Shown one piece after another: positions 15,257 to 41,300 of a DNA stretch of 64,000 nt (position 1 is the stretch's first letter; each line of letters opens with the position of its first letter). The notes under the pieces are model-generated. The model saw only the letters and a program-made list of their open reading frames with translations. It made no database searches and was not told the DNA's origin. Source of the DNA: Rheinheimera texasensis DSM 17496 (GTDB lineage: Bacteria; Pseudomonadota; Gammaproteobacteria; Enterobacterales; Alteromonadaceae); NCBI RefSeq assembly GCF_000711985.1, contig NZ_KL544005.1, positions 571,970-635,969 of the forward strand. The letters run 5' to 3'. The position numbers and the translations under genes were made by a program.

Positions 15257-15257
15257 T

Positions 15258-16290: not shown

Positions 16291-16294
16291 CAGC

Positions 16295-17861: not shown

Positions 17862-18559
17862 CAGCACTCAGTGCCGCAGACTGGCAAGCAATTCAGCTGA
17901 CCCTGACACTTGCTTTTTACACAATGCTGCTGCTGTTAGTGATTACGACACCATTAGCCTGGTGGCTGGCTGGCGAGCGACGTGGCTTATCCGCTTTTAG
18001 TTATTGGTTGCGGACTTTGGTGCAAACAGTTGTTGCTCTGCCTTTAGTCCTCCCCCCCACAGTGCTTGGGTTTTATTTGCTGTTGTTACTTGGTCCGCAA
18101 GGCGTTGTCGGCAGCACACTGCAACAACTGGGGTTGCCGCATCTGGCATTTTCCTTTCCGGGTATTTTGCTGGCGTCGGTGCTTTATTCGTTACCATTTG
18201 CCGTGCAGCCTTTGCAACAGGCATTTGAGCAGCTGGGCCGCCAGCCGGTTGAGATCGCGGCAAGCCTGGGCGCTGGCCCAATAGATCAGTTTTTTACTGT
18301 GATCCTGCCTTTGTGCCGTGGCGGATTTGTCGTCGCGGCGACGCTGAGTTTTGCCCACACCCTTGGCGAATTTGGTGTGATTCTGATGTTAGGTGGCAGT
18401 ATTCCGGGCCAGACCAAAGTGTTGTCTATCGCCATCTATGATCATGCAGAGGCCATGAACTATGCGGCGGCACAGCAGCTTTCATTGTTGTTGTTGCTGT
18501 TTTCGTTTGTCGTGCTTTTTGTGGTTTACGGTGCTCGTCGCAAAACCGGGAGTCTATGA
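17858..18559 (+). CDS. modB: molybdate ABC transporter permease
   Basis: A 233-residue permease with about five membrane helices. LPLVLPPTVLGFYLLLLLG is the ModB signature, and the EAA loop is EIAASLGAGPIDQFFTVILPLCRGG. GEFGVILMLGGSIPGQTKVLSIAIYD is also typical of ModB. It lies between modA and modC with 4-base overlaps on each side, suggesting coupled translation. Confidence 0.93.
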   Translation: MTALSAADWQAIQLTLTLAFYTMLLLLVITTPLAWWLAGERRGLSAFSYWLRTLVQTVVALPLVLPPTVLGFYLLLLLGPQGVVGSTLQQLGLPHLAFSFPGILLASVLYSLPFAVQPLQQAFEQLGRQPVEIAASLGAGPIDQFFTVILPLCRGGFVVAATLSFAHTLGEFGVILMLGGSIPGQTKVLSIAIYDHAEAMNYAAAQQLSLLLLLFSFVVLFVVYGARRKTGSL

Positions 18560-19632
18560 TGACGGCATTACGGATAAAAGCGCATTGGCAAAGACATCAC
18601 TTCAGTCTGAACATCGATACCATTTTGCCTGCCAGCGGCATTACCGCATTGTTCGGCAGATCAGGCTGTGGCAAAAGCAGTTTACTGCGACTGATAGCTG
18701 GTCTCGAGATGGTCCGTGATGCAACGGTCATTTTTGCCGACCAACCCTGGCAACGCCAGCAGAATTTTGTCCCGTTGCATAGACGCCGCATTGGTCTGGT
18801 CTTTCAGCAAAGCGGATTATTACCCCATTTATCCGCAGAGCAGAATTTATTGTATGGATTTCACCGGGTGCAACCCGAACTCCGCCGGTTAATGCCTGCG
18901 GACGTTATCAGGATGCTTGAGCTGGAATCATTGCTGAGGCAACCGTTAACCAGCCTGTCCGGTGGGCAACAACAACGCTTGGCTCTTGGCAGGGCCTTAT
19001 TAGCGAATCCCCAATTATTGCTGTTAGATGAGCCCTTTGCGGCCTTAGATAGCCTGAGTAAAACGGCGATACTGCCATACATCCGGACCCTGGTTGATGA
19101 AACCGGTATTCCGCTGTTTTTTGTCTCGCATGACAGCCGGGAGGTTGAAAAACTTGCAGACCAGCTGGTGCTGATGGATGGCGGTCAAATCACAGAACAA
19201 TCCAGTCTCACTACTGCATTGGCAAACCCAAATAATCCTTTGTTTGATGGCTCCGACATCGTCTCTTTGTTTTTCGGAGTGCCGGCTGAAAAAGACAGTT
19301 GGGGGCGGGTTCCAGTCCTCAGCAACGCTTGTTGCCTTTGGCTGGGTGATTTGACTGAGCCTGTCCCAATATCACAAGGTCAAGTCAGACTCAGTATTCG
19401 GGCCAAAGACGTGAGTCTGGCCCTGTCTCCGATCGCAGATCTGTCGATCCAAAATCAGTTACCAGCCCATATCACCAACATAACGCCCTACCGTCAGCAA
19501 TTCCTGATCCAACTGCAATTGGCTGATGGACAGCTGTTACAGGCTGAAATTACACCCTATGCAGCCGCCCAGCTCAACCTCACAATAGGCAAGCCCGTGA
19601 TTGCGCTGGTCAAAGCTATTGCTATCCGTTGA
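18559..19632 (+). CDS. modC: molybdate ABC transporter ATP-binding protein
   Basis: About 357 residues. The ABC core has Walker A FGRSGCGKSS, Q-loop LVFQQSGLLPHLSAEQN, signature LSGGQQQR and Walker B LLLLDEPFAALD. A C-terminal TOBE/MOP domain (about residues 290-355) binds molybdate, as usual in ModC. ATG at 18559 has GGGAG 6 bases upstream; ATG at 18556 is the alternative. It ends the moa-mod run and is convergent with the decarboxylase gene, 22 bp apart. Confidence 0.92.
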   Translation: MTALRIKAHWQRHHFSLNIDTILPASGITALFGRSGCGKSSLLRLIAGLEMVRDATVIFADQPWQRQQNFVPLHRRRIGLVFQQSGLLPHLSAEQNLLYGFHRVQPELRRLMPADVIRMLELESLLRQPLTSLSGGQQQRLALGRALLANPQLLLLDEPFAALDSLSKTAILPYIRTLVDETGIPLFFVSHDSREVEKLADQLVLMDGGQITEQSSLTTALANPNNPLFDGSDIVSLFFGVPAEKDSWGRVPVLSNACCLWLGDLTEPVPISQGQVRLSIRAKDVSLALSPIADLSIQNQLPAHITNITPYRQQFLIQLQLADGQLLQAEITPYAAAQLNLTIGKPVIALVKAIAIR

Positions 19633-19654
19633 GCTCAGTCATCAGGCAATCTGG

Positions 19655-21340
19655 TTATGCACTGCTACACAGACCACGTTGAAAACTCGCCAGGGTTTCA
19701 CTATAGCCGTGCTGTGGCAACATCACTTCAATCAACCGCGGCCTGCGTGTGTCCGCAAGGGCGTCCGCCAGGGCGCCATCAAACTGGTGCAGGTTCCAGA
19801 TTTGACTGGCTCCGCAGCCCATAGCTCTGCCAAGCGCGGCATATTGCCAGCCGGCTAACCCGGCAGCTGTCAGCTCGGGCGCAAAAGCTTTAATCATGCC
19901 CCAGCTTTGATTGTTCAGTACTATGACGATCGGATTCAGCCCATATCGCTGGCAATGGCCCAGCTCCAGCCCGGTCATTTGAAATGCCCCATCACCAACC
20001 AACACTATCGGACGTAAACCGGAACTTAACTGTAAACCAAGCGCAGCAGGCACGGCAAAACCCATCGATGCGTAAAACGCTGGCGCGATGAGTGTGGCAG
20101 GATTCGCGGATAAAGCGGCAAACAAACAGTCACCGATATCAACAACAAAAGGATAGGTTTGCGATTGTTGACTTAACAACTGATGCAGGCGATTCACCAG
20201 GGTATCAGAACGCCAGACACCCGCTGTTTGTCCGTTTTGATCTGATGCTGACTTGAAGGCATTTTCACAGGGGGCTGCGGTTATCTGCACCTGCGGTTTT
20301 GCCTCAGCCCGAGCAGTAAAAGCATGTTGCAGTGCGGCGAGCACCTCAAGTGCAGGTAATTTAATGACACGGCCATCAGGCAATTGAGTTTGCTGCTCAT
20401 CCACCCACAGCACAGGTCTGTCGGTCAAAAGTCTGGGATGCGCTGCAAAGTTACTGTCAGAACGAATAACACCGGCACAAATTAAAAAGTCAGATTGCTG
20501 CAGCCAGGGTAATGCCGGGTCTTCCTTCGCCCCGCTGTATACGCCTTTGTAACTGGCGGCACTGATATCTAACACGCCACGCCCCAATAACGTCGTCAAC
20601 GCCGGCATCCCGCAGCGCTGGGCCAATTCAGCGACTGCAAGGTCAAAGCCAAAACGCTTTGCTTTCACGCCCACCAATAAACAGGGGGTTGTTACTTTGC
20701 ATGGCAAATCCAGACAAAACTGTTCCAGCTGACGTTGTGCATTCCTGAGATCTGTTTGATTGACATCATCCGACGCGCCAGACTGCATCTTCGCAAGAGG
20801 AGAACACAACACTTGTGCATTCGCCATATCGCGGGGCAATTCTATCAATACCGGTTTACTTTCAGATATTGCCCGTTGAATCATCTCAGTTAGCTGCTGA
20901 GCCGCCGTTGCCGGATCATCGAGCCGGCATTGCCCGCAGGTGACTTCAGTTAGAATTCGTCGCTGCGCGTTAAGATCACTCACCTGATGATGTAGCAATA
21001 AACCTGAGGCTGCTTCGTGCTGCGATGGATAGCCGGCAAACACCAGCAGTGGCACATATTCCATGTAGGCCTGTGCAATCGCATTCACCGCATTCAGAGC
21101 ACCGGCGCCATAGGTCAGCATCACCGCAGAAGGCGCATTGCGCCAGCGTGCGGCGGCATCAGCCGCATAGACTGCAGAGGGCTCATGGCTGAGCTGGATC
21201 AGCCGCAGTGGCTTTGCTTGTTGTCGTTGCCCCGACTCCAGCGCCCCCAGCCACGGCAGAATAAAGTCGCCGGGAATGGTATAAAGGTCGTGGATGCCAT
21301 TGTCACTGAGTCGCCGATGTAACAGGTCTGCCAGAATCAT
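19655..21340 (-). CDS. thiamine-diphosphate 2-oxoacid decarboxylase (PDC/IPDC-like)
   Basis: About 561 residues with the three-domain thiamine-diphosphate fold. The N-terminal activating Glu is in LIQLSHEPSAVYAADAAAR. The paired histidines of pyruvate and indolepyruvate decarboxylases are seen as LLLHHQVSD. The cofactor motif starts GDGAFQMTGLELG and ends with NNQSWG. These point to a 2-oxoacid decarboxylase instead of acetolactate synthase, though the substrate is uncertain. ATG at 21340 has GGAG 7 bases upstream. Its place between the molybdate operon and moeA is unexplained, as it needs no molybdenum. Confidence 0.75.
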   Translation of the reverse strand: MILADLLHRRLSDNGIHDLYTIPGDFILPWLGALESGQRQQAKPLRLIQLSHEPSAVYAADAAARWRNAPSAVMLTYGAGALNAVNAIAQAYMEYVPLLVFAGYPSQHEAASGLLLHHQVSDLNAQRRILTEVTCGQCRLDDPATAAQQLTEMIQRAISESKPVLIELPRDMANAQVLCSPLAKMQSGASDDVNQTDLRNAQRQLEQFCLDLPCKVTTPCLLVGVKAKRFGFDLAVAELAQRCGMPALTTLLGRGVLDISAASYKGVYSGAKEDPALPWLQQSDFLICAGVIRSDSNFAAHPRLLTDRPVLWVDEQQTQLPDGRVIKLPALEVLAALQHAFTARAEAKPQVQITAAPCENAFKSASDQNGQTAGVWRSDTLVNRLHQLLSQQSQTYPFVVDIGDCLFAALSANPATLIAPAFYASMGFAVPAALGLQLSSGLRPIVLVGDGAFQMTGLELGHCQRYGLNPIVIVLNNQSWGMIKAFAPELTAAGLAGWQYAALGRAMGCGASQIWNLHQFDGALADALADTRRPRLIEVMLPQHGYSETLASFQRGLCSSA

Positions 21341-25403: not shown

Positions 25404-25445
25404 AAAAGCCAGCCCAGATGAGCCTCTGAGCTGGCTTTTGTTTTT
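25404..25445 (+). terminator. terminator after narK
   Basis: AAAAGCCAGC (25404-25413) pairs with GCTGGCTTTT (25430-25439), followed by GTTTTT. It lies 18 bp past the narK stop and could act in both directions. It also marks the last clear chromosomal feature before the recombinase operon. Confidence 0.85.
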
Positions 25446-25605
25446 GACGCGTTAGACTCTTTGAATATCGATCGCACTATCGCTGGAAAATTACTGAATC
25501 ACCACCAACCAAATAGATTTTTCCCAGCAGTTCCTAGTACGGTTTTCAAAGGCCACTAATCAAAAAGAACGGTCAGTCATAGTCTAATGCGACAAGGTGA
25601 GTAAA

Positions 25606-28600
25606 CTATTGCCCCGAACCATCTTCCTCAGGCGTATTTGGAGAATTCATCAAGTTTTCGTAGCATTTCTGAATCCACAGCTCCTGCTCTGAGAGCTTTT
25701 TCTCCCGGGGCTTCTTTTTCGAAGTCTTCGGGCTGTCCCAATCATAAAGAATTGGGTCCAAAAGGCTTGGGTCATACAGTTCCGGACCGGCATCCATTAT
25801 CAGTTCCAAACCCTGGCTGTCGTAGTGTACTGACTCGATGTCTTGAGTTTGCGGCGTCGTGACCTGCGTACTTGCTTGTGTCGTTTCGGTTTCCTTCGGA
25901 GCAATAGGCGGCACTTCCCTGCTGTATTTCTGTGTGTAGAACTCGATATGAGGATTGTCGCGGCAATGGAGGTAATACAGACCAATCAAGGCGGTTTTCA
26001 GGCCGTAACCGGAGTTTCTTGGGGTCAGGGATTCGCTGTCTATCACGCGAGTCAGGTTTAACGATACATAGTAGCGATTTTCAATAAATAAGTACTGCGG
26101 GTGTCTTATTAACATTCGCTTGAACATCCTCAGATTCAGCCCCCGCTTTCTCATCAATGATTTTCGCAGCCAGGCGTCAGGTTCGGCTTTATTACGAAGC
26201 GACAGCTTGATTTTTTGCCTGGGTTCCAGCTTTTGGATGATGGGTTTGATATTTTCGACAAAGTCCACCAGGCGATTTTTGTAAAAGAAGCGGATGTCAC
26301 TGAATTTACCCGGGCATACCCAGACGACATAACTTGCCGCCGCGAGAACCATCGATTGCTCTTCGGCGGTTAACTTTTGATACATCACCAATATTTGCAG
26401 GGCAACAGCTGCATCCCGACGATGACGTGGCCAAATCGGTACTCGGACATGAGGTCTATGCAATAACTTCTTCTCATCTTCATTATCCCTATGGCCATCA
26501 CTGTCGCGATAACTATCACTGTGACTCTCGCCATATTCCTCATTCAGCTGCGCCAATCCCCTTTCATAAGATAACTTGCACTTCCCGCTCATCGGCTTTG
26601 CATGCACCACCACCTGCCAAGCATCCACCGCAGCCTTGAGTCTGTCGATATCAACCAGATACTTCTTCTCCAACGCTTTGAGCGATATTTCTTTGAAGTT
26701 GTTTTGATAATAATGCAGCGCTTGGTAAAAACGGCTATCCGCGTGACCGTAGATTTTTAGATGAATAGCCTCCGCAAGCTGCTGCGCCGGGGGTGCTTCT
26801 GGGATGGCATGACAAAATGGCTGAAGCTGTTTGGCTACCAGTCCTGCCAAATGGCCCTGCTCTAAATGACGAAACACCGTCCGCCGATGAAGCCCCAGCA
26901 ATTCTATTTCCCGCTCTCGGGAGAAATGACTGTCTCGCCAAAACTCCGCAACGATGGCCCAGTGCATCGAATGCAGGTAATGAAAAGTGGTAATCGACGG
27001 ACCTGAGTGACCGGTCATCAGACTAATTGCATGTAGCGTTTTTCGGCTCGGCATAGCCTGCAGCTGTTGAAAGTACTGCGCTTTTGCCATCGCTAAATGC
27101 GCCATCACCGGGTGCTGTAACTGTGTTTTCAGTGGAAATGCATGGGGATATTTATCCGCTTGCCAGGACCAGAACAGCCAGGTGGCAAAACTATGTCTTA
27201 GGCGGTGAAAACGAAAGGTTGCGTCATCGGTGATAATCTGCAGGACCTGCACCAACCCGTTAAATAGCTGGTCATCCGGATACAGCTCCGCATATTTATT
27301 TTTTTGCGAAAACAGATATTGCGGCCCCCGTTCTTTGCGGGGCCTCGATTGCATAAAATCAAACAGCAGCCGGATTTCATCCGCGCTCGCCAGAAGACCA
27401 AGGGGGACACGACGTGTCGCGGAATCTGACTTCAGCCCCCGCTCTTCATGCGGGTTGACGACAACCACCACCGAGCTTGCTATCCACTCACCAAGGTCAT
27501 CCCGCTGAATTTCGAAATCTTGTAGCCGCAGCATGTACGCTTCGCTGCGTCTGAGGCCACAGCGAAACCCCAAAATCAGTAAAAGACTCTGAGCCTTCGC
27601 CACATCGTTGTCTTGGTCTGCCAAATACGCTAAGGCCCTTGCATATTCTGCCGGCAGCAGAATATTGGCATCGACCAACTCGGCCTTGTTCCGCTCGCCT
27701 TGGACGATGGCTTGCGTAAACACGTAACTTTGCGCCAAGCCATAAATTTTCATCAGATAGATGTGAAAATCCCGCAACACACGGGCACGCTTTGTTTTCC
27801 CGGCACTGCTGGGCGCGCCATCAATGATGTCTACGTAAGCTTCATCCAGACTTTCAGCTAACAGTAGCTCGATGCGTTGCTCTTGGAACCGTCGGCTAAG
27901 TGGCTCAAAGATAGTACCGAGATAGCTCAGTAAACTTTTGGGCCGGATCCTGCCGGACCAATGACTTTTCATCACCAGCCGATGTGATGCCCAGCTGATT
28001 AATTCGCGCGTCACCGGCAACAAATTCAAATCCGGATTGTTGGCAATACTGGCAATCTGTTGACTGGCGTCTTTGAGGCCACTAAAAGTGCTTTGTGTCT
28101 TCGAAGTGCCGGTTTTCGCAGAGGCATTTTCAGCGCTCTGAAGTGCAGCCGCCGCACCTCTTAAGATGTCCCTCACATCTTTCATGACATCGGCACAGGC
28201 GGTGACCGAGCTCAGCGATTTCGAATAACTGGGGCGCTTTTCAGCTTCGCGAGTGCGCACGACTGTCGAGATTGGTGCTGAGAGTTCTGCTGAGGCGTCA
28301 GCTGTGTCTTCAACAATCGCTTCCTGCCCGGGATATCGTCCGCCTAATAACCGGTAAAACGAAACCGGGTCGAGTGTCAGGTTCGGCTCGCTATCACTCA
28401 TCACCCCAAGCAGGCATGGGGTCATATGAAGCGACAACCTTGCCAATATCAATTCCCGCATTGCTGTTGTTGTCATCCCGGCAAGCTCTGCATGGCCCTC
28501 ATGACGTAAAAAAGCCCGGATATATTTTTCCGGCTGCGGTGGGAGCGCAGGGACTTGTTGGATGTGTTGTTTTGCCTGAATAAAAGCATTAATCAGTAGC

Positions 28601-29220
28601 AAGGACACCGGATCTGGCAGCCATAGATGAGTTTCGCCCGCCTGACCGGTTAACTCGAACCAAATCACGTCCTGATGGCAATACGGTTTATCCTGCAGAA
28701 AGACTTGCAGTAACTCGCTTTGCAAATCCCCCCGCAACAAACCACCAAATCGCATCGCACAGTACAGCAGCCGCCCCAGGCACAGCGTCCAGTCCGAATG
28801 ACTGAGTAGCTGCGGCTTGCCATCAGGCGCCATTCCAGCATGTTCATCATCGGCTTTTTGCAACAGAAGTTTTTTATCACATTGCTCCAGCAGAGGCAGT
28901 AGCTGCAAGTTCCCCTGACGCAGTGGCGGCTTTGGCCGTCTGAGCTGTATCGGATTGCGCAGATTTAGCTTGGCGAATTCCCCCTTGTTGCGATGAGCCA
29001 CGATGTAATTATTCAGATGCGCTAATAATTCAATCGCCGAATGCGTGCGGGATTTCGACTTTCTGGCGCGCTCATGCTCTGGACTGAAAATCGCCCAAAA
29101 CAGATTGTCATAGTCAGATTGCTGCAGAATGATCAGGTCGCTCTCGATACGCTGTGTAGCCTTCAGCCCCACCCCATCCATAATAGTGATGAGCTCAAGT
29201 GGCAATTCCCTGATTTTCAT
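25606..29220 (-). CDS. very large tyrosine recombinase/integrase
   Basis: About 1204 residues, three times a normal integrase. A tyrosine-recombinase catalytic domain lies near residues 530-755: Arg in LGFRCGLRRSEAYML (about 557), Lys in GLKSDSATRRVPL (about 597), FHRLRHSFATWLF (about 672-683), and TGHSGPSITTFHYLH with the His at about 738 and the nucleophilic Tyr at about 748. All catalytic residues are present, so it is probably active. The first 500 residues and the last 400 have no recognised domain; the tail is charged and proline-rich. ATG at 29220 overlaps the stop of the 841-residue gene by 4 bases. It is the third gene of the operon. Confidence 0.75.
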   Translation of the reverse strand: MKIRELPLELITIMDGVGLKATQRIESDLIILQQSDYDNLFWAIFSPEHERARKSKSRTHSAIELLAHLNNYIVAHRNKGEFAKLNLRNPIQLRRPKPPLRQGNLQLLPLLEQCDKKLLLQKADDEHAGMAPDGKPQLLSHSDWTLCLGRLLYCAMRFGGLLRGDLQSELLQVFLQDKPYCHQDVIWFELTGQAGETHLWLPDPVSLLLINAFIQAKQHIQQVPALPPQPEKYIRAFLRHEGHAELAGMTTTAMRELILARLSLHMTPCLLGVMSDSEPNLTLDPVSFYRLLGGRYPGQEAIVEDTADASAELSAPISTVVRTREAEKRPSYSKSLSSVTACADVMKDVRDILRGAAAALQSAENASAKTGTSKTQSTFSGLKDASQQIASIANNPDLNLLPVTRELISWASHRLVMKSHWSGRIRPKSLLSYLGTIFEPLSRRFQEQRIELLLAESLDEAYVDIIDGAPSSAGKTKRARVLRDFHIYLMKIYGLAQSYVFTQAIVQGERNKAELVDANILLPAEYARALAYLADQDNDVAKAQSLLLILGFRCGLRRSEAYMLRLQDFEIQRDDLGEWIASSVVVVVNPHEERGLKSDSATRRVPLGLLASADEIRLLFDFMQSRPRKERGPQYLFSQKNKYAELYPDDQLFNGLVQVLQIITDDATFRFHRLRHSFATWLFWSWQADKYPHAFPLKTQLQHPVMAHLAMAKAQYFQQLQAMPSRKTLHAISLMTGHSGPSITTFHYLHSMHWAIVAEFWRDSHFSREREIELLGLHRRTVFRHLEQGHLAGLVAKQLQPFCHAIPEAPPAQQLAEAIHLKIYGHADSRFYQALHYYQNNFKEISLKALEKKYLVDIDRLKAAVDAWQVVVHAKPMSGKCKLSYERGLAQLNEEYGESHSDSYRDSDGHRDNEDEKKLLHRPHVRVPIWPRHRRDAAVALQILVMYQKLTAEEQSMVLAAASYVVWVCPGKFSDIRFFYKNRLVDFVENIKPIIQKLEPRQKIKLSLRNKAEPDAWLRKSLMRKRGLNLRMFKRMLIRHPQYLFIENRYYVSLNLTRVIDSESLTPRNSGYGLKTALIGLYYLHCRDNPHIEFYTQKYSREVPPIAPKETETTQASTQVTTPQTQDIESVHYDSQGLELIMDAGPELYDPSLLDPILYDWDSPKTSKKKPREKKLSEQELWIQKCYENLMNSPNTPEEDGSGQ

Positions 29221-31742
29221 GAACAAAGCCCGGTCATCGCGCGAATATCCAACAGCCGAATGAGCTCATCAAGCTGAGGTCTCAACGCCTGACGAATATC
29301 GGTAAACGACAATGTGGATTGTGCATTCCAAAAGTGTTCCCCAAGATTGCCATGCCCGATGTAAGCGTCAATGATTTCGGCAGGAACCCGTTTCATATCC
29401 AGATAAGAGCGCAAGAAACGGCGGTGACTGTTGGCAGGTAAATCTATCCAAGGTGCGAGCAAGTCGGCATATTTCTTGGGCCGAAATGGCGTGATGGCGA
29501 CCCGGATGGTTTTGTCGCCATCCTTGCGCTTGCGCCCGGCGTTGGTGAAGAAAAATGGCGTGGGGCACTGGAGCAAATGCCAGGGTTGTAACATCCCAAT
29601 CCGGTGCATCCGTCCGGCCATCGCTTCAATATGACTCTGGTAGTTCTCAGCAATTTGAATAGCAAGCGGATGAAGCGGGATCGTTCGGCTGTGGAACTCA
29701 TCTTCAGTATCTTTATCGCGCAGCACCGCCACATCGACGCCATGAAGAATATCACTCGAGCGGATAAAGCCATGATGCGTGGGCCGCATGCCAGTCAGCA
29801 ATCCCTGGCAGAGGACCGAATAGACAGTAAAGTGATTGTGAAACACTAACCATTGGTCATCGGTAAGCAGTGACTTCTTTAACTGCTCCAGATGCTTTCG
29901 AAGCCCAGCCAAGGCATCGACATATTGCTGCAAAGTCGGCAGATAGCGACAGCCAAGTGACAATGACGGAATGGGCAACTGGTCGTCATTTTGCGAAAAG
30001 GTCAGAGGCACGCCACTACTCACCGACATCTCTTCAATGAGCTCGCGATAACGCGCCCGAATTTCCACTAAAGGTAGTGCCGTATAATACAAACGTGCCT
30101 GACTGCCAGGTGCCGGCCTGCCAAACATCAGCGTGGCAGTGGCACTGCCAAAGCGTTGGCAAGCCCGGATAAACAAATGATTAGCGACCTGGGATAAAGA
30201 GATACCCGACAGTTCACCTTGCATGCTAAGCCTGTAAAATATGTCGATGCCTGCCGTTTGTTCGAGGTCACCTAATAATCGATTCTCTCGGTATAACCGA
30301 TTTTTAGAAATGTCAGCTTCTAACCACTCAACCAACTCGTCCGGAAATGGTAACCTGACTCCTTCCGCAAGCGGAGTTGCATCCACCTGGCGCAGGTCAT
30401 GCTCATAGTTGATGGCATACGCTGGCAACCCCACTTCCCTACCGTCTTCGCGCAAATAAACGACGTCAAACCGATTTTCACTCAAATCGGCTGTGACTCT
30501 TGATGCCCTGAATCCAGGTTCATGCCGCGCACAAAACAACATCAACAATATGAGCTTTGCAGGCTCCTGGTCATAATCTTTTGCACTGAAGCAAACCTTT
30601 AAAATGCTCCGAAGCTGGGTACCAGATAACGACTGAAACGAAGATGGTAAGTACTGATGTTGACGCTCTACACGTTTGCGGACGGCCCCTGCGACCCGTC
30701 GGCCATGAAATGCGGTGATATAGTGCTCAATCGGTTCGTGTTCGGCGAAGATAAAGGCTTCTGTTGCAGGTTGTTCAAATAATTCCTCTCCTGCGTCAAA
30801 CTCGTCTTCGCCGTAGTCAGTTTCGAGCAACGAATAGAGCGTATCTGGCGCACCATTGGTTTCAATCAACGTTTCCGGATAAAGCAGTGCACTGCCAGTG
30901 AGTGCTGAAATACCATGACTGCTTAATCCACTGACGATGTCCCTACCGGGCCCTTGCCCACCCCGGGGCCCGCTGGCTGTGCGCTTTTTCTCAAATCCCT
31001 GTGTGATCCGCAGAATCTTTATGACGTCCATTATTTCGTGATAAAAATACTGATTCTTCCGTCGCGGATCTTTAGACTTTAATGCCCCTCTCGCTGTGCG
31101 ATAGTCCGGCGGCAACTCACTATGCGCAACAAAGTAGTCCGCCAGGTCATACAAAAACTCAATAAATGCGAAATAGCTTGGGCAATACTGACAATCCGCT
31201 TTTTTAAGCCATTCCAAACCGACTGGATTTTCATCGGTTAACCGACGCATCATAATGCTGATGGTATTAAAATCATGCTCCTTGAAACCTATGCTGATCC
31301 CATAGTTCTGCATCGTTGCCTGACGAAAAGTGAACAAAAATTGTCGCAACCAGTGAAAAAACAGCTGATTTTCCGCACTATTTAAGTAGAACAACGAATA
31401 AAAAGGGTTTTTATCTATGGTACCACGTAAGACGCTACGTACTTTTGTCTGGCTGGTGTTTCGCCACAAACGTTGGTGTTTTTTGGCTGGCGTGATCTGA
31501 GCATGGCAGCGATAAATCAACTCCTCCAATAGACGCAGGTCTTCAACAACATCGTCCAAACTGCTGACATCCCGCATCAGCGGCAAGGCAAGCGCTGCTT
31601 TGGCATTTTCAAACACCCCGGCAATCCCAACCAAATCCGCAGGGGCGTTTAATCTTTCCAGCAGACTTGGCAAGCGCTGGCCTTGTTCGGGGTCTAACTG
31701 AAAGGTCTCAAAGGCAAATGACCAATCAGGCATCGAGTTCAT
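29217..31742 (-). CDS. degenerate tyrosine-recombinase-like protein
   Basis: 841 residues with no clear domain in the first 600. Near the C-terminus there are traces of a tyrosine-recombinase domain: Arg in QGLLTGMRPTHHG (about 658), Lys in LRDKDTEDEFHSRTIPLHP, SHRRFLRSYLDMKRVPAEI (from about 772) and YIGHGNLGEHFWNAQST (from about 795). The expected nucleophilic Tyr after the GH is absent (FWN instead), and the HxxRH box is altered to RxLRSY. It is therefore probably not catalytic and may be a partner of the downstream recombinase. It overlaps the small upstream gene by 17 bases and the downstream gene by 4. Confidence 0.65.
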   Translation of the reverse strand: MNSMPDWSFAFETFQLDPEQGQRLPSLLERLNAPADLVGIAGVFENAKAALALPLMRDVSSLDDVVEDLRLLEELIYRCHAQITPAKKHQRLWRNTSQTKVRSVLRGTIDKNPFYSLFYLNSAENQLFFHWLRQFLFTFRQATMQNYGISIGFKEHDFNTISIMMRRLTDENPVGLEWLKKADCQYCPSYFAFIEFLYDLADYFVAHSELPPDYRTARGALKSKDPRRKNQYFYHEIMDVIKILRITQGFEKKRTASGPRGGQGPGRDIVSGLSSHGISALTGSALLYPETLIETNGAPDTLYSLLETDYGEDEFDAGEELFEQPATEAFIFAEHEPIEHYITAFHGRRVAGAVRKRVERQHQYLPSSFQSLSGTQLRSILKVCFSAKDYDQEPAKLILLMLFCARHEPGFRASRVTADLSENRFDVVYLREDGREVGLPAYAINYEHDLRQVDATPLAEGVRLPFPDELVEWLEADISKNRLYRENRLLGDLEQTAGIDIFYRLSMQGELSGISLSQVANHLFIRACQRFGSATATLMFGRPAPGSQARLYYTALPLVEIRARYRELIEEMSVSSGVPLTFSQNDDQLPIPSLSLGCRYLPTLQQYVDALAGLRKHLEQLKKSLLTDDQWLVFHNHFTVYSVLCQGLLTGMRPTHHGFIRSSDILHGVDVAVLRDKDTEDEFHSRTIPLHPLAIQIAENYQSHIEAMAGRMHRIGMLQPWHLLQCPTPFFFTNAGRKRKDGDKTIRVAITPFRPKKYADLLAPWIDLPANSHRRFLRSYLDMKRVPAEIIDAYIGHGNLGEHFWNAQSTLSFTDIRQALRPQLDELIRLLDIRAMTGLCS

Positions 31743-32262
31743 CAGCTTGTTGCGGCAGGCTAGTGTCTTTTACATAGCGCAGATTCCGGTATTTCGGGAG
31801 CACGTTGAGCGTGTCAGCACTGACGTGGTTTTTGATAAGCCTCAGCTGTTCAAAGACTTTATTGCCAAGGGAAAACAGCAAAGGACTGCCTGCCAAATCC
31901 AGTTCAGCCAGCGCCACAATTTCCTTTGGTTTGATGTTTTGGTGAATGATGACAGGAATCAAGTTAAACAGCTGCGCGTCTTGAACCGATAACACCCGCG
32001 CTGTACACATCAGTTCATACAGCCGAAAGCCCGCAATCACCTGAAATTTAGATTCCTCTTGAACAGCGCTATCTTTAGCATCAGTGACTATCGGACTTTC
32101 TTTTTCAACCACATGGATAGGATAAAGCCTGGCAAGCGCCAACAAACCAGCAGGCTCAATGTCTTTTACCGAGGCAGTATAAGAGACCGCATGCAACTGC
32201 TTAACCAGAGCTTCCGCTTTTGGATGTAGTCCTGAAATCCGATTAAATTCAATTTCTTGCAT
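31726..32262 (-). CDS. ParB/Srx-like small protein of recombinase operon
   Basis: 178 residues. The central part (KDIEPAGLLALARLYPIHVV, then FQVIAGFRLYELMCT at about residues 92-106) resembles the ParB/sulfiredoxin N-terminal fold, where the I-x-G-x-R box contacts phosphate or nucleotide. The match is partial and no HTH is evident. It leads the three-gene operon. ATG at 32262 is chosen over the TTG one codon before; no strong ribosome site is present. A role in target DNA binding or in regulating the element is a guess. Confidence 0.55.
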   Translation of the reverse strand: MQEIEFNRISGLHPKAEALVKQLHAVSYTASVKDIEPAGLLALARLYPIHVVEKESPIVTDAKDSAVQEESKFQVIAGFRLYELMCTARVLSVQDAQLFNLIPVIIHQNIKPKEIVALAELDLAGSPLLFSLGNKVFEQLRLIKNHVSADTLNVLPKYRNLRYVKDTSLPQQADELDA

Positions 32263-32446
32263 CAATGCTTAGCTACTTTCCTCTGCTTGAGTAGCCAACA
32301 TATAACGCGAATTGATGCTAGGCAAGTGGGTGTAAATGTCGTTCCTCATCAACTCTAAATTTGGTTGGGGTTGAAGTCATCTCAGAGATGAGCGGATATA
32401 AAATAATGTATTTGCGAGAAACGGATTTCCTTGATTTTGTTTAGGT

Positions 32447-32488
32447 ATCAGAGAACAAGACAACCTGATTATGGACTTGCTCTCTGAT
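32447..32488 (-). terminator. hairpin after the outer-membrane protein gene
   Basis: On the minus strand ATCAGAGAGCAAG pairs with CTTGTTCTCTGAT through 13 pairs including one G-T, starting 12 bases past the stop at 32500. No T-run follows, so it may end transcription weakly or protect the 3' end. The rest of the 237-bp gap up to 32262 shows only short palindromes. Confidence 0.45.
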
Positions 32489-32499
32489 GGTCGCATTTG

Positions 32500-33921
32500 C
32501 TAAAACAGACTGACGAAATTCACAAAACCTCCGGTCCAAATCTGATCCGTGGTCAGTAACTGCTTAATACCTTCTCCTGGGCGTGCGATTGCAGCACCGA
32601 AATTGAGATAATTATTTCGGTTGATTATGTGGTTGTACTCAATGAAATAATCGTCCGACAAATGCCTTGCGTTTACCCCAGTCACAACACTTGAGAGCCC
32701 ATCAGCTAGATCAAGTCTGGTTGCCTGACCGAATTGGATGGGACTGCGTAATTCATCTGCCAAGACTCTTGCAATTCGAAACGTCAAAATATGTTGGGCG
32801 CCCGGTAGCCAACGTACTGCAAGCTGGTGGACTCGTAGATTTGAATTAATAAACATCATTGACGACTTCGAACCGCTTGACCAAGCATTTGGCGACCCCT
32901 CGTAATACAATGGGTCAAATCTCTCAAGTGTTGCGGTAAACGGATCATCACCACTAAACTGCTGATATGTATAAGTAATTGTTGGTTGCCACTTTTGTTT
33001 TTGCCAATTGACACCTAAACGTAAGCGCGCTGCGTCTGCTGCCATATCCAAGATCTCGTGCGTCTCTTTGCTAATGTCTATTTCGGTCGTCCATACTCGC
33101 TGCCCTTGATCTTCAAGACTCATTTTGGTGTAACCATAAACGAATTTAAGACCATCACGGCCCTTTTCAATTATTGTAGGGGCTGATACGCCATCTAAAC
33201 CAGCTTGTGGGTACGGGGACAAAGACTCAGTGATCTTACCAGCTGTTACACCAGCAAATTTAATTATGCTTTCAGGCGAAATTCTGAAATCAATACCAGT
33301 AATATCGGTGTTGGTAATGTTTGAATCCAGATCGTTTGGAGATAAACTGAACAAAGAAAACTCGACTTGCTCATGCTGAACACGCGCAATCATTGTATTC
33401 TTCCAAGCTTTGCGCGGTCCGAATTTCAGCGCCCCGCGCTCAAACCCGCTAGATCCACCGTTGGAAATCAACATGCCGGACCCTGTGCTAAACTCTTGAG
33501 CCCCTGCTGATACATCCAGCCGGCTGTGGTCACTAAATTGCCGCCGGTAACCAACATAAGCATCTTCGATGGTTACACGACCAGTATCCCCATTCGCAAA
33601 AGCATCGGTTCCCAGGGTTCCAGTTGCAACCACAGAAATCTCACCATAGAACTGATGACGGCCTTGCTGGTACTGACCGGCGAAACCTGGTTCCAAATAT
33701 AGCTCCAGCCAATGGGTCGAGGTATCAAACTGACTATCAGGTGCAAATTGTTCAGACATTCGCCAGAACAAGTTATCTTCGCGCACTAGGTTCGCACCAA
33801 ATTCGTTGCTTTTACTATAAGTCCATCCGTTTGCAGTCTCTGCGAGCGCTGGGCTAATCGTTTGAAGAGCCAGAACATAAATTAATGCGCACACTAAACC
33901 TGTATTATTTTGCTTTCCCAA
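32500..33921 (-). CDS. outer-membrane beta-barrel protein (alginate-export/porin-like)
   Basis: A 473-residue protein. Signal peptide GLVCALIYVLALQTISPALA, then alternating hydrophobic/polar strands with many aromatic residues, and a final Phe (FVNFVSLF), the usual mark of an outer-membrane barrel. GRVTIEDAYVGYRRQF and LDVSAGAQEFSTGSGMLI resemble the alginate-export (AlgE-like) family, and a substrate cannot be read. No ATG is available before the signal peptide, so the TTG at 33921 with GAGGG about 9 bases upstream is the start. It sits downstream of a lipoprotein amidohydrolase on the same strand. Confidence 0.65.
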   Translation of the reverse strand: MGKQNNTGLVCALIYVLALQTISPALAETANGWTYSKSNEFGANLVREDNLFWRMSEQFAPDSQFDTSTHWLELYLEPGFAGQYQQGRHQFYGEISVVATGTLGTDAFANGDTGRVTIEDAYVGYRRQFSDHSRLDVSAGAQEFSTGSGMLISNGGSSGFERGALKFGPRKAWKNTMIARVQHEQVEFSLFSLSPNDLDSNITNTDITGIDFRISPESIIKFAGVTAGKITESLSPYPQAGLDGVSAPTIIEKGRDGLKFVYGYTKMSLEDQGQRVWTTEIDISKETHEILDMAADAARLRLGVNWQKQKWQPTITYTYQQFSGDDPFTATLERFDPLYYEGSPNAWSSGSKSSMMFINSNLRVHQLAVRWLPGAQHILTFRIARVLADELRSPIQFGQATRLDLADGLSSVVTGVNARHLSDDYFIEYNHIINRNNYLNFGAAIARPGEGIKQLLTTDQIWTGGFVNFVSLF

Positions 33922-34039
33922 AACTTATTCCCTCTGTTTCAAGCTATAGAACTCAAGCGTAAATTCCCAAAATCTGTTTGTGCAGGTAATAACGGCTTAA
34001 TACACTTTTCGAATCAACTAAACAGTCCGATTCCATGCC

Positions 34040-35770
34040 TTATTTAGTTTCAAAAATCGTTTTCCCTGCACTGATAGTTCGAATTATTTTTAAGTCATTC
34101 AGTTTCATCGGTTCGATCTTTAACGGGTCTTGATTTAGGATCACAAAGTCAGCCTGAAAACCTACTGCTAATTTACCTTTTCGCTGTTCCTCAAAATGTT
34201 GATGAGCAGCCCAATGCGTCATCGCTTTTAGCGCCGTATATGCGTCGACCCGTTGGTCAGCACCTAACACCTGCCCGCTGCGGGTCACACGATTAACTGT
34301 TGCATGTAATACCCGCAGTGAGCTTGGCAATGCTACCGGCGCATCATGATGGCTAGTAAACATCAAACCGGCATCCCGCACCGATCTGGTCGGTGAAATA
34401 AAATTAGCCCGTTCTTCGCCAAGAACAGACTCCCGATGCCAATCCCCCCAATAATAGGTGTGCATTGGAAATAAGGAAGGAAACACAGCGAGTGATTTTA
34501 ATCGGGTAATTTGATCAGCTCGTAGCGTCTGGCCATGGATTAAAACTGTGCGACGGTCTGTATTGCCATGCTTAGCAGCGGCGACTTCAAGCGCATCGAG
34601 CATCTGGTCAATCGCGGCATCCCCGTTCGCGTGCACCAATAACTGCCATTTATTACTGTACGCCTGGTCAATAAATGCAGATGCCTTTTCATTGTCAAAC
34701 ACCGGATAACCGGCATAACTCTGTTCCTGCCCGACCGGTACCACGTGGTAAGGGTGGCTTAACCACGCGGTTTTTCCCTGTGGCGAACCATCCAAGGTCA
34801 ACTTAACACCAGCAATTCTAAACCGGTGTTTGTACTGACTGGCATAATACGGCGACGACATCGCTTTGCTATCGCTGACGATATCCGGGTAAGCAACAAC
34901 ATCCATCAGCAGTTCGCCGCGTTCGGCTGCCATTTGCATCATCGCAACACTGTCTGCAGATGCACGACCTTCCTGAGCTGTTGTGTAGCCATAGCTGGCA
35001 TACATCTGTTGCCCACGTTGGAACATAGACTGTTGAAGCTCGAGATCCATTTTGCTCAGCAGTTTACCCAGCGCCATAAAATGAGCGGTTTCTTCCAAAA
35101 CACCGTCCGGTTCACTGCTGCCGGATTTACGCCGGATCACTCCACCAGGGGGATTTTTTGTCTCTGCGGTAATGTTGAGCATTTTTAAGGCGACCGAATT
35201 AACCACACTTAAATGCCCGGAGGTATGCATAATTAAAACTGGCAGTTCGGTTGACACCTTATCCAGATCAGCAGACTGTGGATAACGGTCCAACTCAGCA
35301 TCATCGTAACCGAAACCGATGATTACGCCAGTCTTCTGGATGAATGGTTGATACTCTGATTGCTTTGGGGCATCTTTTAAAATGTTGAGCATTTGGTCAA
35401 CGGTTTTTGCTTGGCCATCAGGTGGAGGCAGCAAGTTTGCTACGGAAGCCTGTAACCCCACTGCAAACACATGGCTATGTGCATCAATAAAACCAGGTAA
35501 CATGGTCTGCCCACGTAAATCTATATAGTTCGCTTTGCCTGTGTAAGCCTTATCAGCCGCCTCTTTGCTACCGACAAATGAGATAAAACCATTTTCAACA
35601 ACCACAGCCTCTGCATATTCAGGGGTATCGCCGGCCATCGTAATAATTGAACCGCCATGATAAATATCCGCGCTTGCAACTACAGGCGGAATGGCCTTTT
35701 CATTAGTTACCAGTGCAGGCTGGCCACAACCGAGCAAAAGTAAAGACGACCAAACAATAAAGTGTTTCAT
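34040..35770 (-). CDS. lipoprotein amidohydrolase (YtcJ-like)
   Basis: About 576 residues. The N-terminus MKHFIVWSSLLLLGCGQ has a lipobox (LLGC), so the enzyme is probably a periplasm-facing lipoprotein. The amidohydrolase metal site starts at FIDAHSHVFAVG (HxH). YtcJ-type marks follow: LTLDGSPQGKTAWLSHPY, LLVHANGDAAIDQMLDALE and FTSHHDAPVALPSSLRVLHATVNR. The family hydrolyses amide or N-acyl bonds; the substrate is unknown. ATG at 35770 is chosen because GGAG lies 9 bases upstream and the lipobox fits. It follows the RND pump genes with a 79-bp gap and may share their transcript. Confidence 0.8.
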   Translation of the reverse strand: MKHFIVWSSLLLLGCGQPALVTNEKAIPPVVASADIYHGGSIITMAGDTPEYAEAVVVENGFISFVGSKEAADKAYTGKANYIDLRGQTMLPGFIDAHSHVFAVGLQASVANLLPPPDGQAKTVDQMLNILKDAPKQSEYQPFIQKTGVIIGFGYDDAELDRYPQSADLDKVSTELPVLIMHTSGHLSVVNSVALKMLNITAETKNPPGGVIRRKSGSSEPDGVLEETAHFMALGKLLSKMDLELQQSMFQRGQQMYASYGYTTAQEGRASADSVAMMQMAAERGELLMDVVAYPDIVSDSKAMSSPYYASQYKHRFRIAGVKLTLDGSPQGKTAWLSHPYHVVPVGQEQSYAGYPVFDNEKASAFIDQAYSNKWQLLVHANGDAAIDQMLDALEVAAAKHGNTDRRTVLIHGQTLRADQITRLKSLAVFPSLFPMHTYYWGDWHRESVLGEERANFISPTRSVRDAGLMFTSHHDAPVALPSSLRVLHATVNRVTRSGQVLGADQRVDAYTALKAMTHWAAHQHFEEQRKGKLAVGFQADFVILNQDPLKIEPMKLNDLKIIRTISAGKTIFETK

Positions 35771-35849
35771 AGCAACTAACTCCATGTGACTTGAAAAAGT
35801 TACGGTCACCAAACATAACTAGACGTGTGTAGGTTAAACATTAATCTAG

Positions 35850-38800
35850 TTAAGATTCTGACGACGGGATCCGGTAAATCACGAGATACAATAGCGGAAT
35901 GACCACCAAAGTGAGCGCGGTGGCAAATAACAAACCAAACATAATGGTCACCGCCATGCTCTTAAAAAACGGGTCCAACATTAAAGGTGCCACGCCGAGA
36001 ATCGTGGTGACAGCACCCAAAATCACCGGTTTCGCCCGGCTCACGGCGGCATCGATCACTGCCAGATATGGCATGCAACCAGCTTTGATGTTTTGTTCTG
36101 CCTCATCGACCAGCACAATCGCATTTTTAACCATCATGCCAATCAGACTCAAAAATCCGAGGATCGCCATAAATTCAAAAGGCGTGGCAAATGCAACCAA
36201 ACCAACCACCACACCAACGACAGCTAACGGGACCGTTAACCAGATCACGATGGCCGGACGAATCGCATTAAACATCAGCACCACCGTCAGAACCATTGCC
36301 GCGAAACCGATTGGTGCCGAGGCTGCAATCCCCTGATTAGCATCGTTTGACGCTTTATACTCGCCATACCAAGTTAACCGGTAGCCTGCCGGCAGTGGGA
36401 TCGCTTCAATCTGTGGACGAAGTCGGGCAAACGAATCGGCAGCCAGTACTCCTGGCGCCGGATCTGCCTGCGCCAAAATGGTAGGTTGCCGGTCAATCCG
36501 GCGGATCATGGCATCTTGCCATTGCACCGCGGCACTCACCTGCAAACTTTGCAATGGCAGCGGTTTTTGCGTCATCGGGCTGATAACCTGCACGGTATCC
36601 AGTGCCGACGGGCTATTGCGCTCCAACGCAGGAGCCCTGACAACCAAAGGGATCAAACGGTTGTGTTCACGAAAATAGCCAATCTGTTGCCCTTGCAGCG
36701 CTTGCTGTAATGCCTGATTGATCTCAATTTGAGTAAGGCCTGCTTGCTGCATTAATGCTGCATCGTACACAGGTACTATTACAGGTACCTGTTGACGCCA
36801 GTCGTCCTGCACCGCAATTAACCCCGGCGTCGTTAACATCACCGATTTTGCCTGCTCTGCCAGAGCACGCAGTATTGTTGGATCTGGTCCGCTAAAGCCC
36901 GCTTCAATTTTCTTACCACCACCCCGGCCCAGCATAAACTTCCAGACTTTGACCGATACATCCGGGTATGCGGCAGATAACTGCTGTTGTAATAGACTGA
37001 CCAGCGCTGAGATTTCTTTGGCATCAGTCACATCGACTAACAACTGTCCATAAGCCGCATTGCGTGCTTCAGGTGCATACGACAACATAAAGCGTAACCC
37101 GCCACCGCCAGTAAAACTGGTGATGTTGGTGACCGCGGGCTGTTTTGCCACCTCGCTGACGATTTGCCGGGTCAATTGCTCGGTATGCTCAATCGCTGTG
37201 CCCTGCGGTAGATACAAATCAATCACAAATTGTGGCCGTTGTGATTCAGGCATAAAACCTGGCGGGATCCATCGCATGCCCCACACTGCTAACCCGAATA
37301 AACAACACAGAGCGACGCCGGTCAGCCAACGCTGGCGCAGAACGTGGTTTAGCAAGTTGCGATAGCCGTTCAGCAAGGCACTTGGTTGCTGTTGCTTGAC
37401 AGCGTCGGCGGCTAAAAACTGATGGCACAACATCGGTGTCAGCGTAATAGCAAACACCCAACTCAATAACATCGAATACAAAATGACCCAAAACAAGGAG
37501 CCGGCATACTCGCCCATATCACTGGGTGACAAGCCAATCGCGCTAAAAGCCAGGATACCAACCAAAGTGCCGCCTAATAAAGGCCAGACAGTCGCCCTGA
37601 CCACATCACAGATCGCCTGATCCGCCGGCACGCCCTGCCGTAACTTCACCAGCACTCCATCCGTCACCACAATGGCATTATCAACCAGCATCCCCAAGGC
37701 AATAATCAATGCCCCTAATGAGATCCGTTGCATAGCGATATTATCAATCAGCATGATGATCAGCGTCGCAGCAACCGTCAGCAGCAACACAAACCCGATG
37801 ATCACCCCCGCGCGGAACCCCATAAAAAACAACAAGACCAGAAAGACGATAACAATGGCCGCGACTAAATTCTCTACAAAACTGGCGACCGAAGCTCTGA
37901 CACTATCGGATTGCACCGACACTTCTTGCAGCGTCATGCCAACCGGTTGCTGTGCCGCCAGCAAGGCAAGTTTTGCCTTGACGGCATCCCCCATCCTGAC
38001 GACATTACCGCCTTTGATATTGGAGATGCCAAGGCCAATTGCCCGCTCGCCGTTATAATGCATCAGTAGTGCTGCCGGTTGTTTTGAAGCACGGCTTATA
38101 GTCGCCACATCCGATAAAACCAACACAGTACCGTTGGCTCCGACCCCGATTGGCAACTGCTGTAAAGCGGTAAAGCTATCAACTGTGCTTGCCGGACGCA
38201 GTGGGACCCGTAATTGCCCCGCAGCCAAATCGCCGGCAGCGACCACCAGATTTTGTTTCTGTAACACATTGAATATTTGCGAAGTGGTCATGCCAAGAGC
38301 GGCAAGTCTGCTGGCAGAGAACTCGAGATAAATCTCCTCCTGCCGGTTTGCCAAGATTGCCGTTTTCGCCACCCCATCGACCAGCGCCAGCTCTTTACTT
38401 AAAAAATCAACATAATCATAAAGTTGCTGGTCCGTGTACCCTTGACCGGTCACGGCATAAAATAATGCGTAGACATCAGCAAAGTCATCGTTGACTAGCG
38501 CCGGGCCGGCACCTTTGGGCAATTGACGTTGTGCATCAGCAACTTTACGCCGCAATTTGTCCCACACTTGGTCCAGCTCAGCAGCTGTGCGGGCAAAGCG
38601 CATATCAATATCAACAGTCACTTCTGACATGCCTTGTGCTGATACAGACTTGATCTGTTTGACTTCTTGCAGCGACTGCACCGAACGCTCGATCAGCTCG
38701 GTCACTTCGTCAGCTACCTCGCGCGAACTGGCGCCCGGGTAGGGAGTCGAAATAACCGCGGTACGGATGATAAATTCAGGATCTTCAAAACGGCCCAACT

Positions 38801-38891
38801 GCTGATAGCTGTGATATCCACCGACCAGCAGCAACACTATCAGGACCCAGAGACTGGTTCTTTTTGCAATGGCGTAACGGGCAATATCCAT
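35850..38891 (-). CDS. RND efflux permease
   Basis: 1013 residues of an AcrB/HAE1-type inner-membrane proton-driven pump. An N-terminal helix (LWVLIVLLLVGGYHSYQQL) is followed by a large periplasmic loop, then helices 2-6, a second loop and helices 8-12. VVVTDGVLVKLRQG and GALIIALGMLVDNAIVVTDG carry the conserved charged Asp of helix 4. The end PLLYLVIYRIPSSES is typical. It shares one base with the adaptor stop (TGATG). No TolC-type channel or dedicated regulator is next to it. Substrate unknown. Confidence 0.88.
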   Translation of the reverse strand: MDIARYAIAKRTSLWVLIVLLLVGGYHSYQQLGRFEDPEFIIRTAVISTPYPGASSREVADEVTELIERSVQSLQEVKQIKSVSAQGMSEVTVDIDMRFARTAAELDQVWDKLRRKVADAQRQLPKGAGPALVNDDFADVYALFYAVTGQGYTDQQLYDYVDFLSKELALVDGVAKTAILANRQEEIYLEFSASRLAALGMTTSQIFNVLQKQNLVVAAGDLAAGQLRVPLRPASTVDSFTALQQLPIGVGANGTVLVLSDVATISRASKQPAALLMHYNGERAIGLGISNIKGGNVVRMGDAVKAKLALLAAQQPVGMTLQEVSVQSDSVRASVASFVENLVAAIVIVFLVLLFFMGFRAGVIIGFVLLLTVAATLIIMLIDNIAMQRISLGALIIALGMLVDNAIVVTDGVLVKLRQGVPADQAICDVVRATVWPLLGGTLVGILAFSAIGLSPSDMGEYAGSLFWVILYSMLLSWVFAITLTPMLCHQFLAADAVKQQQPSALLNGYRNLLNHVLRQRWLTGVALCCLFGLAVWGMRWIPPGFMPESQRPQFVIDLYLPQGTAIEHTEQLTRQIVSEVAKQPAVTNITSFTGGGGLRFMLSYAPEARNAAYGQLLVDVTDAKEISALVSLLQQQLSAAYPDVSVKVWKFMLGRGGGKKIEAGFSGPDPTILRALAEQAKSVMLTTPGLIAVQDDWRQQVPVIVPVYDAALMQQAGLTQIEINQALQQALQGQQIGYFREHNRLIPLVVRAPALERNSPSALDTVQVISPMTQKPLPLQSLQVSAAVQWQDAMIRRIDRQPTILAQADPAPGVLAADSFARLRPQIEAIPLPAGYRLTWYGEYKASNDANQGIAASAPIGFAAMVLTVVLMFNAIRPAIVIWLTVPLAVVGVVVGLVAFATPFEFMAILGFLSLIGMMVKNAIVLVDEAEQNIKAGCMPYLAVIDAAVSRAKPVILGAVTTILGVAPLMLDPFFKSMAVTIMFGLLFATALTLVVIPLLYLVIYRIPSSES

Positions 38892-39952
38892 CAGCGCTGC
38901 TCCATGGCGTACACCGCCATGCCATCCGATAGTGCCTGAACCCCCGCCGTCACAATTCGATCGCCGGCAAGTAAACCATCGGTCACTTCAATTTGATCAC
39001 CAAACAGCCGACCAACCATCACAGTCCTGCGCTGCACTTTGCCATCGGGACCGACCAACCAAAGAAACTGCTGCCCTTGGTTGGTTGGCACTACAGCTGT
39101 AACTGGGACCAATACAAGATTCTGGCCCGCACTGGCTGCTGATTTGGCAAATACCCGAACGTTCATCCCTGGTAGCAAACGACTGGCCGGTGTTTCAGCA
39201 AAACCGAGAATAACCTGATAGGTATTGGCCAGCGGATCAGCCGTTCTGGCATGATACCGGTAAGTCACGGCAAAACGTTGCGCCGGCAGATTTTCGACTT
39301 CGACTAAACCATGCATGCCCGCTTTTGGCGACACAAAATATTTAGCCGGTACTTCGATGGCAATTTCCAAATTTTCCGGGTCCTGCAGCACCAATATCGG
39401 TTGGTTTGCCTGGACCGTCTGAAAATTACTAGCAAGCTTTTGTGCCACCACTCCGGAAAACGGCGCTTTCAAAATTGAATTGTCCAGGCTTTGTTCTGCC
39501 TGGCTCACTTTATTTGCAGCCACATCGCGTTTAGCGGCCAATTGCTCTAGCTCACTGCGGGAGATCGCTTGCGAATCACGGTAAATTGCAGCGGCTCGGT
39601 CATAGTTTGCTTGCGCCTGCTTCAACTCGACCATTGCTGAATCCAGTTGCACAGCCAATTCACGATTATCCAACTCAGCGAGTATCTGTCCTACCCGAAC
39701 CTGTTGCCCGACTAGTACTTCCAATTGATTTAACTTGCCTGATTGCCGGAACGCGAGTTCAACCCGCTGTGCGGCTCTCAGCACACCGGTGAAGCTGGTT
39801 TCATTGAAGACTGACGGTTGGACAGTGTAAATCAATGCGGGCCTAGGTTTTACTTCGCTCGGCGCTACTGGACCTGGAGGTTCGGAACAGCCAAAAAAAA
39901 CCAGTGATGCAGTGATCAAACTCAGGGGTGCTGCTTTCAAAATTAACCGCAT
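38891..39952 (-). CDS. RND periplasmic adaptor (membrane fusion protein)
   Basis: 353 residues, likely a lipoprotein: MRLILKAAPLSLITASLVFFGCSEPP has a lipobox (FFGC). The barrel-sandwich halves are AAQRVELAFRQSGKLNQLEVLVGQQVRVGQILAELD and ILKAPFSGVVAQKLAS (each split), separated by a coiled-coil hairpin (about residues 100-150, rich in A/E/Q). A beta-barrel domain follows, with LLPGMNVRVFAKS. It links the RND permease to an outer-membrane channel. A palindrome 90 bp upstream is a possible operator. Confidence 0.88.
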   Translation of the reverse strand: MRLILKAAPLSLITASLVFFGCSEPPGPVAPSEVKPRPALIYTVQPSVFNETSFTGVLRAAQRVELAFRQSGKLNQLEVLVGQQVRVGQILAELDNRELAVQLDSAMVELKQAQANYDRAAAIYRDSQAISRSELEQLAAKRDVAANKVSQAEQSLDNSILKAPFSGVVAQKLASNFQTVQANQPILVLQDPENLEIAIEVPAKYFVSPKAGMHGLVEVENLPAQRFAVTYRYHARTADPLANTYQVILGFAETPASRLLPGMNVRVFAKSAASAGQNLVLVPVTAVVPTNQGQQFLWLVGPDGKVQRRTVMVGRLFGDQIEVTDGLLAGDRIVTAGVQALSDGMAVYAMEQR

Positions 39953-40531: not shown

Positions 40532-40747
40532 GTGGAAAAACGCGTCTTCACAGAAATTGAAACCGCGGCTTACCTCGGCATGAGCCGCTCTTATTTACGT
40601 CAATCACGTATGGAAGGACAACGCGCGAACCGCACGCCTGCCCCGCCTTTTATCCGCATTGGTCGTTCGATTCGATATCTAAAAGAAGACCTGGACCTAT
40701 GGCTGGATGCATTACCTAAACAGAATCACCTGACCCAAGCGGAATAA
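40532..40747 (+). CDS. AlpA/excisionase-type HTH protein
   Basis: 71 residues with a MerR-like winged HTH of the AlpA/HTH_17 type: FTEIETAAYLGMSRSYLRQSR, then FIRIGRSIRYLKEDLDLWLDALP. Such proteins act as excision directionality factors or regulators in integrative elements. The start is GTG at 40532; no other start fits. It lies 107 bp before umuD, upstream of the SOS box, and has no partner integrase nearby, so it may be a leftover of an element or a umuDC-linked regulator. Confidence 0.75.
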   Translation: MEKRVFTEIETAAYLGMSRSYLRQSRMEGQRANRTPAPPFIRIGRSIRYLKEDLDLWLDALPKQNHLTQAE

Positions 40748-40826
40748 TATGCTGAGTGCCAATGTCGGTGAGTCGTCGCAAACGCGATGGCTGAAGTTGA
40801 CAAGACAAGCATATGTGCGATCATAG

Positions 40827-40842: not shown

Positions 40843-40854
40843 TTATTGGTGGTT

Positions 40855-41298: not shown

Positions 41299-41300
41299 CG

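Follow-up and report, generated by a model that had tools for sequence, protein, structure and literature searches.

Three overlapping minus-strand genes in the environmental bacterium Rheinheimera texasensis DSM 17496, here named X, Y and Z, probably form the left edge of an integrative island of ~39 kb (~25.58–64.77 kb), with its cargo lying upstream of X. The window is the whole 64,000-nucleotide stretch that was analysed (contig NZ_KL544005.1, here C4, positions 571,970 to 635,969), and coordinates without a prefix refer to it. The evidence comprises the catalytic residues of two recombinase-fold proteins, the patchy occurrence of the genes among relatives and two sharp breaks in similarity to another species of the genus (genome G018).

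The coupling of the trio, proposed in the first-pass annotation, is confirmed by the gene layout: all three genes overlap in the order X-Y-Z, the ATG of X is preceded by a purine-rich stretch, and Y and Z each start within the preceding gene. The same annotation had paired one complete recombinase with one lacking its tyrosine, and this is borne out by the catalytic residues in an alignment of Z-like proteins (17 rows) and Y-like proteins (19 rows); fused proteins contributed their halves as three rows to each set, and one split gene supplied two of the 19 Y rows as pieces. In Z, which carries a Phage_integrase domain in a Pfam scan, R559, K599, R677, H740 and Y750 are present in all 17 aligned rows and H674 in 14 of the 17; the full catalytic set (R, K, R, H and Y) that marks a tyrosine recombinase is therefore present. 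In Y, R653, K677, R774 and H797 are found in 18 of the 18 rows with letters, and the tyrosine column holds Tyr in 4 of 17 rows and Gln in the window protein, which thus lacks the nucleophile of an active tyrosine recombinase. The residue after this column is Ser in 16 of 17 rows (Asn in the second trio of the same genome, described below). A profile built from 13 Y proteins matches the XerC-like structure 4a8e (E = 6.2e-7), and the corresponding Z profile (17 proteins) finds structures of Int and Xer, with a best E of 4.9e-8. Y and X searched alone gave no convincing family match, the one NCBIfam score of X being at chance level (E = 0.14). The ParB-like label given to X is unproven: X has a stretch that we read as ParB-box-like, and none of the profile searches was significant. 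No relative of X was found in viral contigs. In genome G021 the Y gene is split into two overlapping frames of 636 and 189 aa (L023:10945–13418).

The distribution of the trio was assessed in 98 genomes picked around that of the window, 22 of which belong to the genus. Z was matched in ten of the 98 (E up to 1e-3), six of these being among the 22, with matches longer than 700 residues in its own genome, G018 and G017. This patchy occurrence differs from the conservation in all relatives that the first-pass annotation had set against its own proposal. A second complete trio is present in the same genome at C4:636,996–643,564 (L005:2996–9564), on the opposite strand and 33 kb away; it is 33–37% identical to the first by blast and starts 257 bp past the proposed right border at 64,770. 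A third relative in this genome, on contig C5, has its Y- and Z-like halves in one protein of 1763 aa (L006:8927–14218), and two further Y-Z fusions of 1800 and 1729 aa are found in G092 and G006 (L022:5677–11079 and L025:13333–18522). The order of a small gene, Y and Z is also seen on plasmids of V. cyclitrophicus, A. johnsonii and Ketogulonicigenium, as well as in further genomes, so that relatives of the trio span Gamma- and Alphaproteobacteria. Acinetobacter plasmids also frequently carry Z-like recombinases (225 of 229 plasmid records matching one relative).

The first-pass annotation had proposed a comparison with relatives to find the ends of the locus. In G018 the Z end lies on a contig of 3333 bases and is 95.9% identical down to 25580, only 26 bp past the Z stop, beyond which the two sequences are unrelated. 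On the other side, 54736–64770 is found at 96–98% identity on two G018 contigs, with a sharp end of similarity at 64,770. The rpo contigs of the two genomes are 92.5% identical over 11.3 kb, and 500-bp windows have a median of 96.9% for the pieces in common (n = 24) versus 92.8% for the rpo contig (n = 22). The DNA of C4 compared with G018 amounted to 71.8 kb (window 1–20000, 30266–64000 and onward to C4:654000), a first-look scoring having covered 40 of 61 candidates for 1–20000 and 13 of 51 in one comparison right of 30266. Among the candidates scored, the block 54736–64770 is the only long match in these 71.8 kb; no match to 1–20000 was found among the 40 of 61, 30266–49100 has two short matches of 89 and 57 bases, and L005 past the block has an insertion sequence (IS)-type end and one match of 79 bases. 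Both genomes thus have the Z end and the right block in common, and not the flanks tested, the other DNA compared giving short matches at most. The flanks of the trio differ between the two genomes, and the G018 tail past 64770 was not found in the C4 DNA examined, up to C4:690000.

The gene left of Z, narK, is present in nine of the 22 genus genomes (E up to 1e-100). The DNA behind narK was inspected in the other eight, and none joins narK to the right flank. The genes there could be listed in five of the eight; a few distinct neighbourhoods can be told apart, with gene content common within two pairs, and none of the proteins listed in these five matches our 78 kb. The remaining three had short flanks as first read, and G020, once extended, has an integrase behind narK. 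Comparing G017, G020 and G019 revealed a break close to the Z end and no empty site. The comparison thus yielded two breaks against G018, at 25580 and 64770, and not the empty site.

Table 1. Features of the window that bear on the proposed island; the strand is given for genes.
Feature	Position	Strand	Remarks
Hairpin	25404–25439		Terminator-like, behind narK; island starts just past it
Proposed left border	25546–25580		G018 similarity stops at 25580; 25546–25560 holds a GCCACTAAT-type motif, weaker second copy at 25495
Z	25606–29226	−	Giant tyrosine recombinase, 1206 aa
Y	29217–31742	−	Recombinase-fold protein, 841 aa; R-K-R-H retained, Q at Tyr position
X	31726–32265	−	Small protein, 179 aa; ParB-like pattern unproven
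Proposed cargo	32266–64000		Extends to 64,770 outside the window; nested integrase element inside (~40.5–48.65 kb)
Block shared with G018	54736–64000		96–98% identity, running to 64,770

Breaks in similarity close to Z recur at other loci. The Acinetobacter pair L125 and L124 is alike over cargo and trio up to a point 18 bp short of the Z stop; G017 is similar to G020 from 53 bp beyond its Z stop onward; and behind the second trio (Z stop at L005:9564) a conserved gene pair, matched in G002, starts ~100 bp on. In 26 of 60 listed Acinetobacter plasmid rows matching starts 112–255 bp past the Z stop, and these rows were excluded as evidence because an integrase gene starts at that point.

A candidate attachment motif, inverted, is found at both borders. 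The right border bears TGAATCGCCACTAATTTATTAGTGGCGATTCA at 64771–64802, and the two left copies at 25546 and 25495 sit just outside Z. A scan of 118 kb of our DNA with TGAATNGCCACTAAT gave nine matches of at least 11/14, namely the two arms, 25546, 25495 and five elsewhere, and the left flank of G018 matches the arm at 14/15. Six border comparisons were made, each against random windows; p was ~0.01 for own left with own right, 0.002 for G018 left with own right and 0.03 for own left with G018 left, values that are flattering because the motif was chosen from the same data, and the three comparisons involving the G018 right side were at chance level. Directly past the Z stop there is no sequence with a clear second copy at a right end. 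The G018 borders also have a direct repeat, TACTCTGA, which is no better than expected by chance (p ~0.57). A repeat at L005:2770–2824, a 55-base remnant adjoining the border palindrome, was rejected as the end of the element; it is the terminus of an element that other genomes also carry and that we take to be of IS3 type.

In the mechanism we propose, Z most likely cuts and joins DNA, and Y most likely binds the end DNA as a silent subunit; that it is a partner of Z is suggested by the gene overlap and the natural Y-Z fusions that tie the two together. X would be a small accessory protein, and the operon, which is read outward, would end at the border.

The first-pass annotation had marked the following 8–26 kb as possible cargo and likened the set to elements that carry toxins and defence systems. 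The likely cargo is instead the ~32.5 kb upstream of X (32.3–64.77 kb), which encodes a porin-like protein, an amidohydrolase (found only in this genome among the 22; E up to 1e-100), an RND pump with adaptor, HipA, a GGDEF-EAL protein, a chemoreceptor, a PETase-like hydrolase and a TonB receptor. The scanned cargo is mainly concerned with uptake, efflux and metabolism. No toxin family of the type VI secretion system (T6SS) was found in the proteins scanned by Pfam, which cover the small open reading frames (ORFs) only in part, and of ten proteins submitted to PADLOC three scored weakly, the best being the HipA-type protein (E = 1.9e-4). The stretch 40532–48634, which holds umuDC-like genes and an integrase of the Arm-DNA-binding kind, is probably a nested integrative element; parts of it are found again at G000:C4:696–714.5 kb and G017:C3:21–30.5 kb. 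Near 48546–48634 we read a tRNA-like fragment that is repeated in many genus genomes, and ARAGORN and Rfam find no tRNA there. An inverted repeat at 48869–49021 has 46-base arms, 80% complementary, separated by 61 bases. In the block shared with G018 the PETase-like (PF12740) alpha/beta hydrolase (59044–60393) adjoins the TonB receptor (60413–62740), which consists of two separate ORFs of 586 and 172 aa and is possibly a broken gene.

Several observations weigh against an island of this extent. The search gave no empty site, and G018 lacks the middle of the island, so that we infer both extent and movement. The G018 assembly is fragmented: its Z begins at the edge of a contig, the block sits on contigs other than that of Z, X and Y were not found (window 30266–32265 is unmatched), and contigs may have been mis-binned. 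Identities in 500-bp windows overlap in range (0.906–0.996 in the block, 0.846–0.976 on the rpo contig), and the break at 64770 could instead mark where the second trio inserted. As to the motif, p lies between 0.03 and 0.99 in four of the six border comparisons, and 14 other trio loci have no match above 11/14 over stretches of up to 400 bases ahead of X and 300 beyond Z. The similarity between L125 and L124 resumes past Z, after 137 and 779 unaligned bases, at an integrase gene, and the layout with Z at the edge is not universal, since another ORF overlaps the Z end in some relatives. Finally, three Acinetobacter plasmids (L135, L136 and L137; rep_cluster_1656) keep the full trio in one place near rep, as a resident gene would be kept.

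These observations bear on narrower or different readings of the locus. We consider it unlikely, though worth weighing, that the island spans only ~25.58–40.4 kb, that the umuDC integrase element and the block at 54.7–64.77 kb are separate and that 64,770 is where the second trio inserted. The 40.5–48.65 kb stretch does carry an integrase of its own and has sister copies at other places, the esterase and TonB genes of the block also lie side by side in several genus genomes at ~67–73%, and the second trio lies only 257 bp on; but the block and Z are the sole long pieces in common with G018 in the DNA tested, the G018 tail does not reappear past the second trio (up to C4:690000), and the border motif is found at both 25546 and 64771–64802. 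The two inverted trios are very unlikely to be the ends of one composite element of ~46 kb, reaching from 25.58 kb to a point shortly beyond the stop of the second Z. Both Z genes face outward, and each Z stop is near a switch to other DNA (25580 and L005:9564), but similarity to G018 stops at 64770, short of the second trio, and shared ends are unlikely for trios that are just 33–37% identical. Nearly as improbable is a resident, non-mobile module for recombination or maintenance (for example multimer resolution): the constant position it takes near rep on three Acinetobacter plasmids with a common replicon type would suit such a role, but in the genus of the window the trio is chromosomal and patchy, and its flanks differ between this genome and G018.

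The trio might alternatively mark a true Gamma-Mobile-Trio (GMT) island, with X, Y and Z as diverged GmtX, GmtY and GmtZ, an identity that we regard as rather doubtful. Mahata and colleagues reportedly described GMT islands in 2024 as marked by three genes, with recombinase-like proteins among the products. The apparent likeness lies in three island-marking genes, recombinase-like members and several islands per genome. An isolate may hold several GMT islands, and one identical pair at different places is on record; anti-phage defence and T6SS toxin cargo is typical but not strictly defining (PMC12039261). Here, in contrast, the scanned cargo serves uptake, efflux and metabolism, with neither T6SS toxins nor strong defence matches, the relatives reach Alphaproteobacteria, and there was no NCBIfam match named Gmt, in a library for which the presence of Gmt models is not known.

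The exact layout was not found described in the literature searched, which is no proof that no description exists. We tentatively raise the possibility, itself an unlikely one, of a separate, undescribed island class in Gamma- and Alphaproteobacteria, with a giant active recombinase, an obligate Tyr-less recombinase-fold partner (R, K, R and H kept, near-invariant Ser next to the lost Tyr), an outward operon ending at the border and, in some lineages, the two halves fused into a single recombinase of ~1750 aa.

Among the known systems, the SE elements have a recombinase-fold partner of reduced catalytic motif, a cargo island and a position behind a terminator in common with the locus: Tfp is a recombinase-fold partner without the catalytic motif beside large recombinases, and SE-6945 inserts behind a terminator (PMC9345347). 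They differ in their gene set, intA-tfp-intB-srap with two active recombinases versus one here, and on pAQU1 the SE operon has intA as its first gene and points toward the cargo, whereas the trio is read outward. Membership was rejected because gene set and sequence both fail (Y-Tfp, E = 0.65; Z-IntB, E = 0.12; X-Srap, E = 0.08 over 16 columns; all probabilities below 1%). GInt elements, compared by description only, likewise have a recombinase operon, small protein included, that borders a cargo island on one side. They carry ginABCD, encoding three putative integrases and GinD, with transcription likely continuing into the cargo (PMC5385486); the present locus has three genes rather than four, two of them recombinase-like, and is read outward, so that it does not belong to GInt by gene set. 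Tn554 and recombinase-in-trio elements group several recombinase-type genes together, and Tn554, again compared by description only, has two proteins with the catalytic motif versus one here (PMC10214605). The proposal that the trio is the recombination module of an island is supported as a likeness: it resembles, and probably works like, the multi-recombinase islands GMT, SE and GInt.
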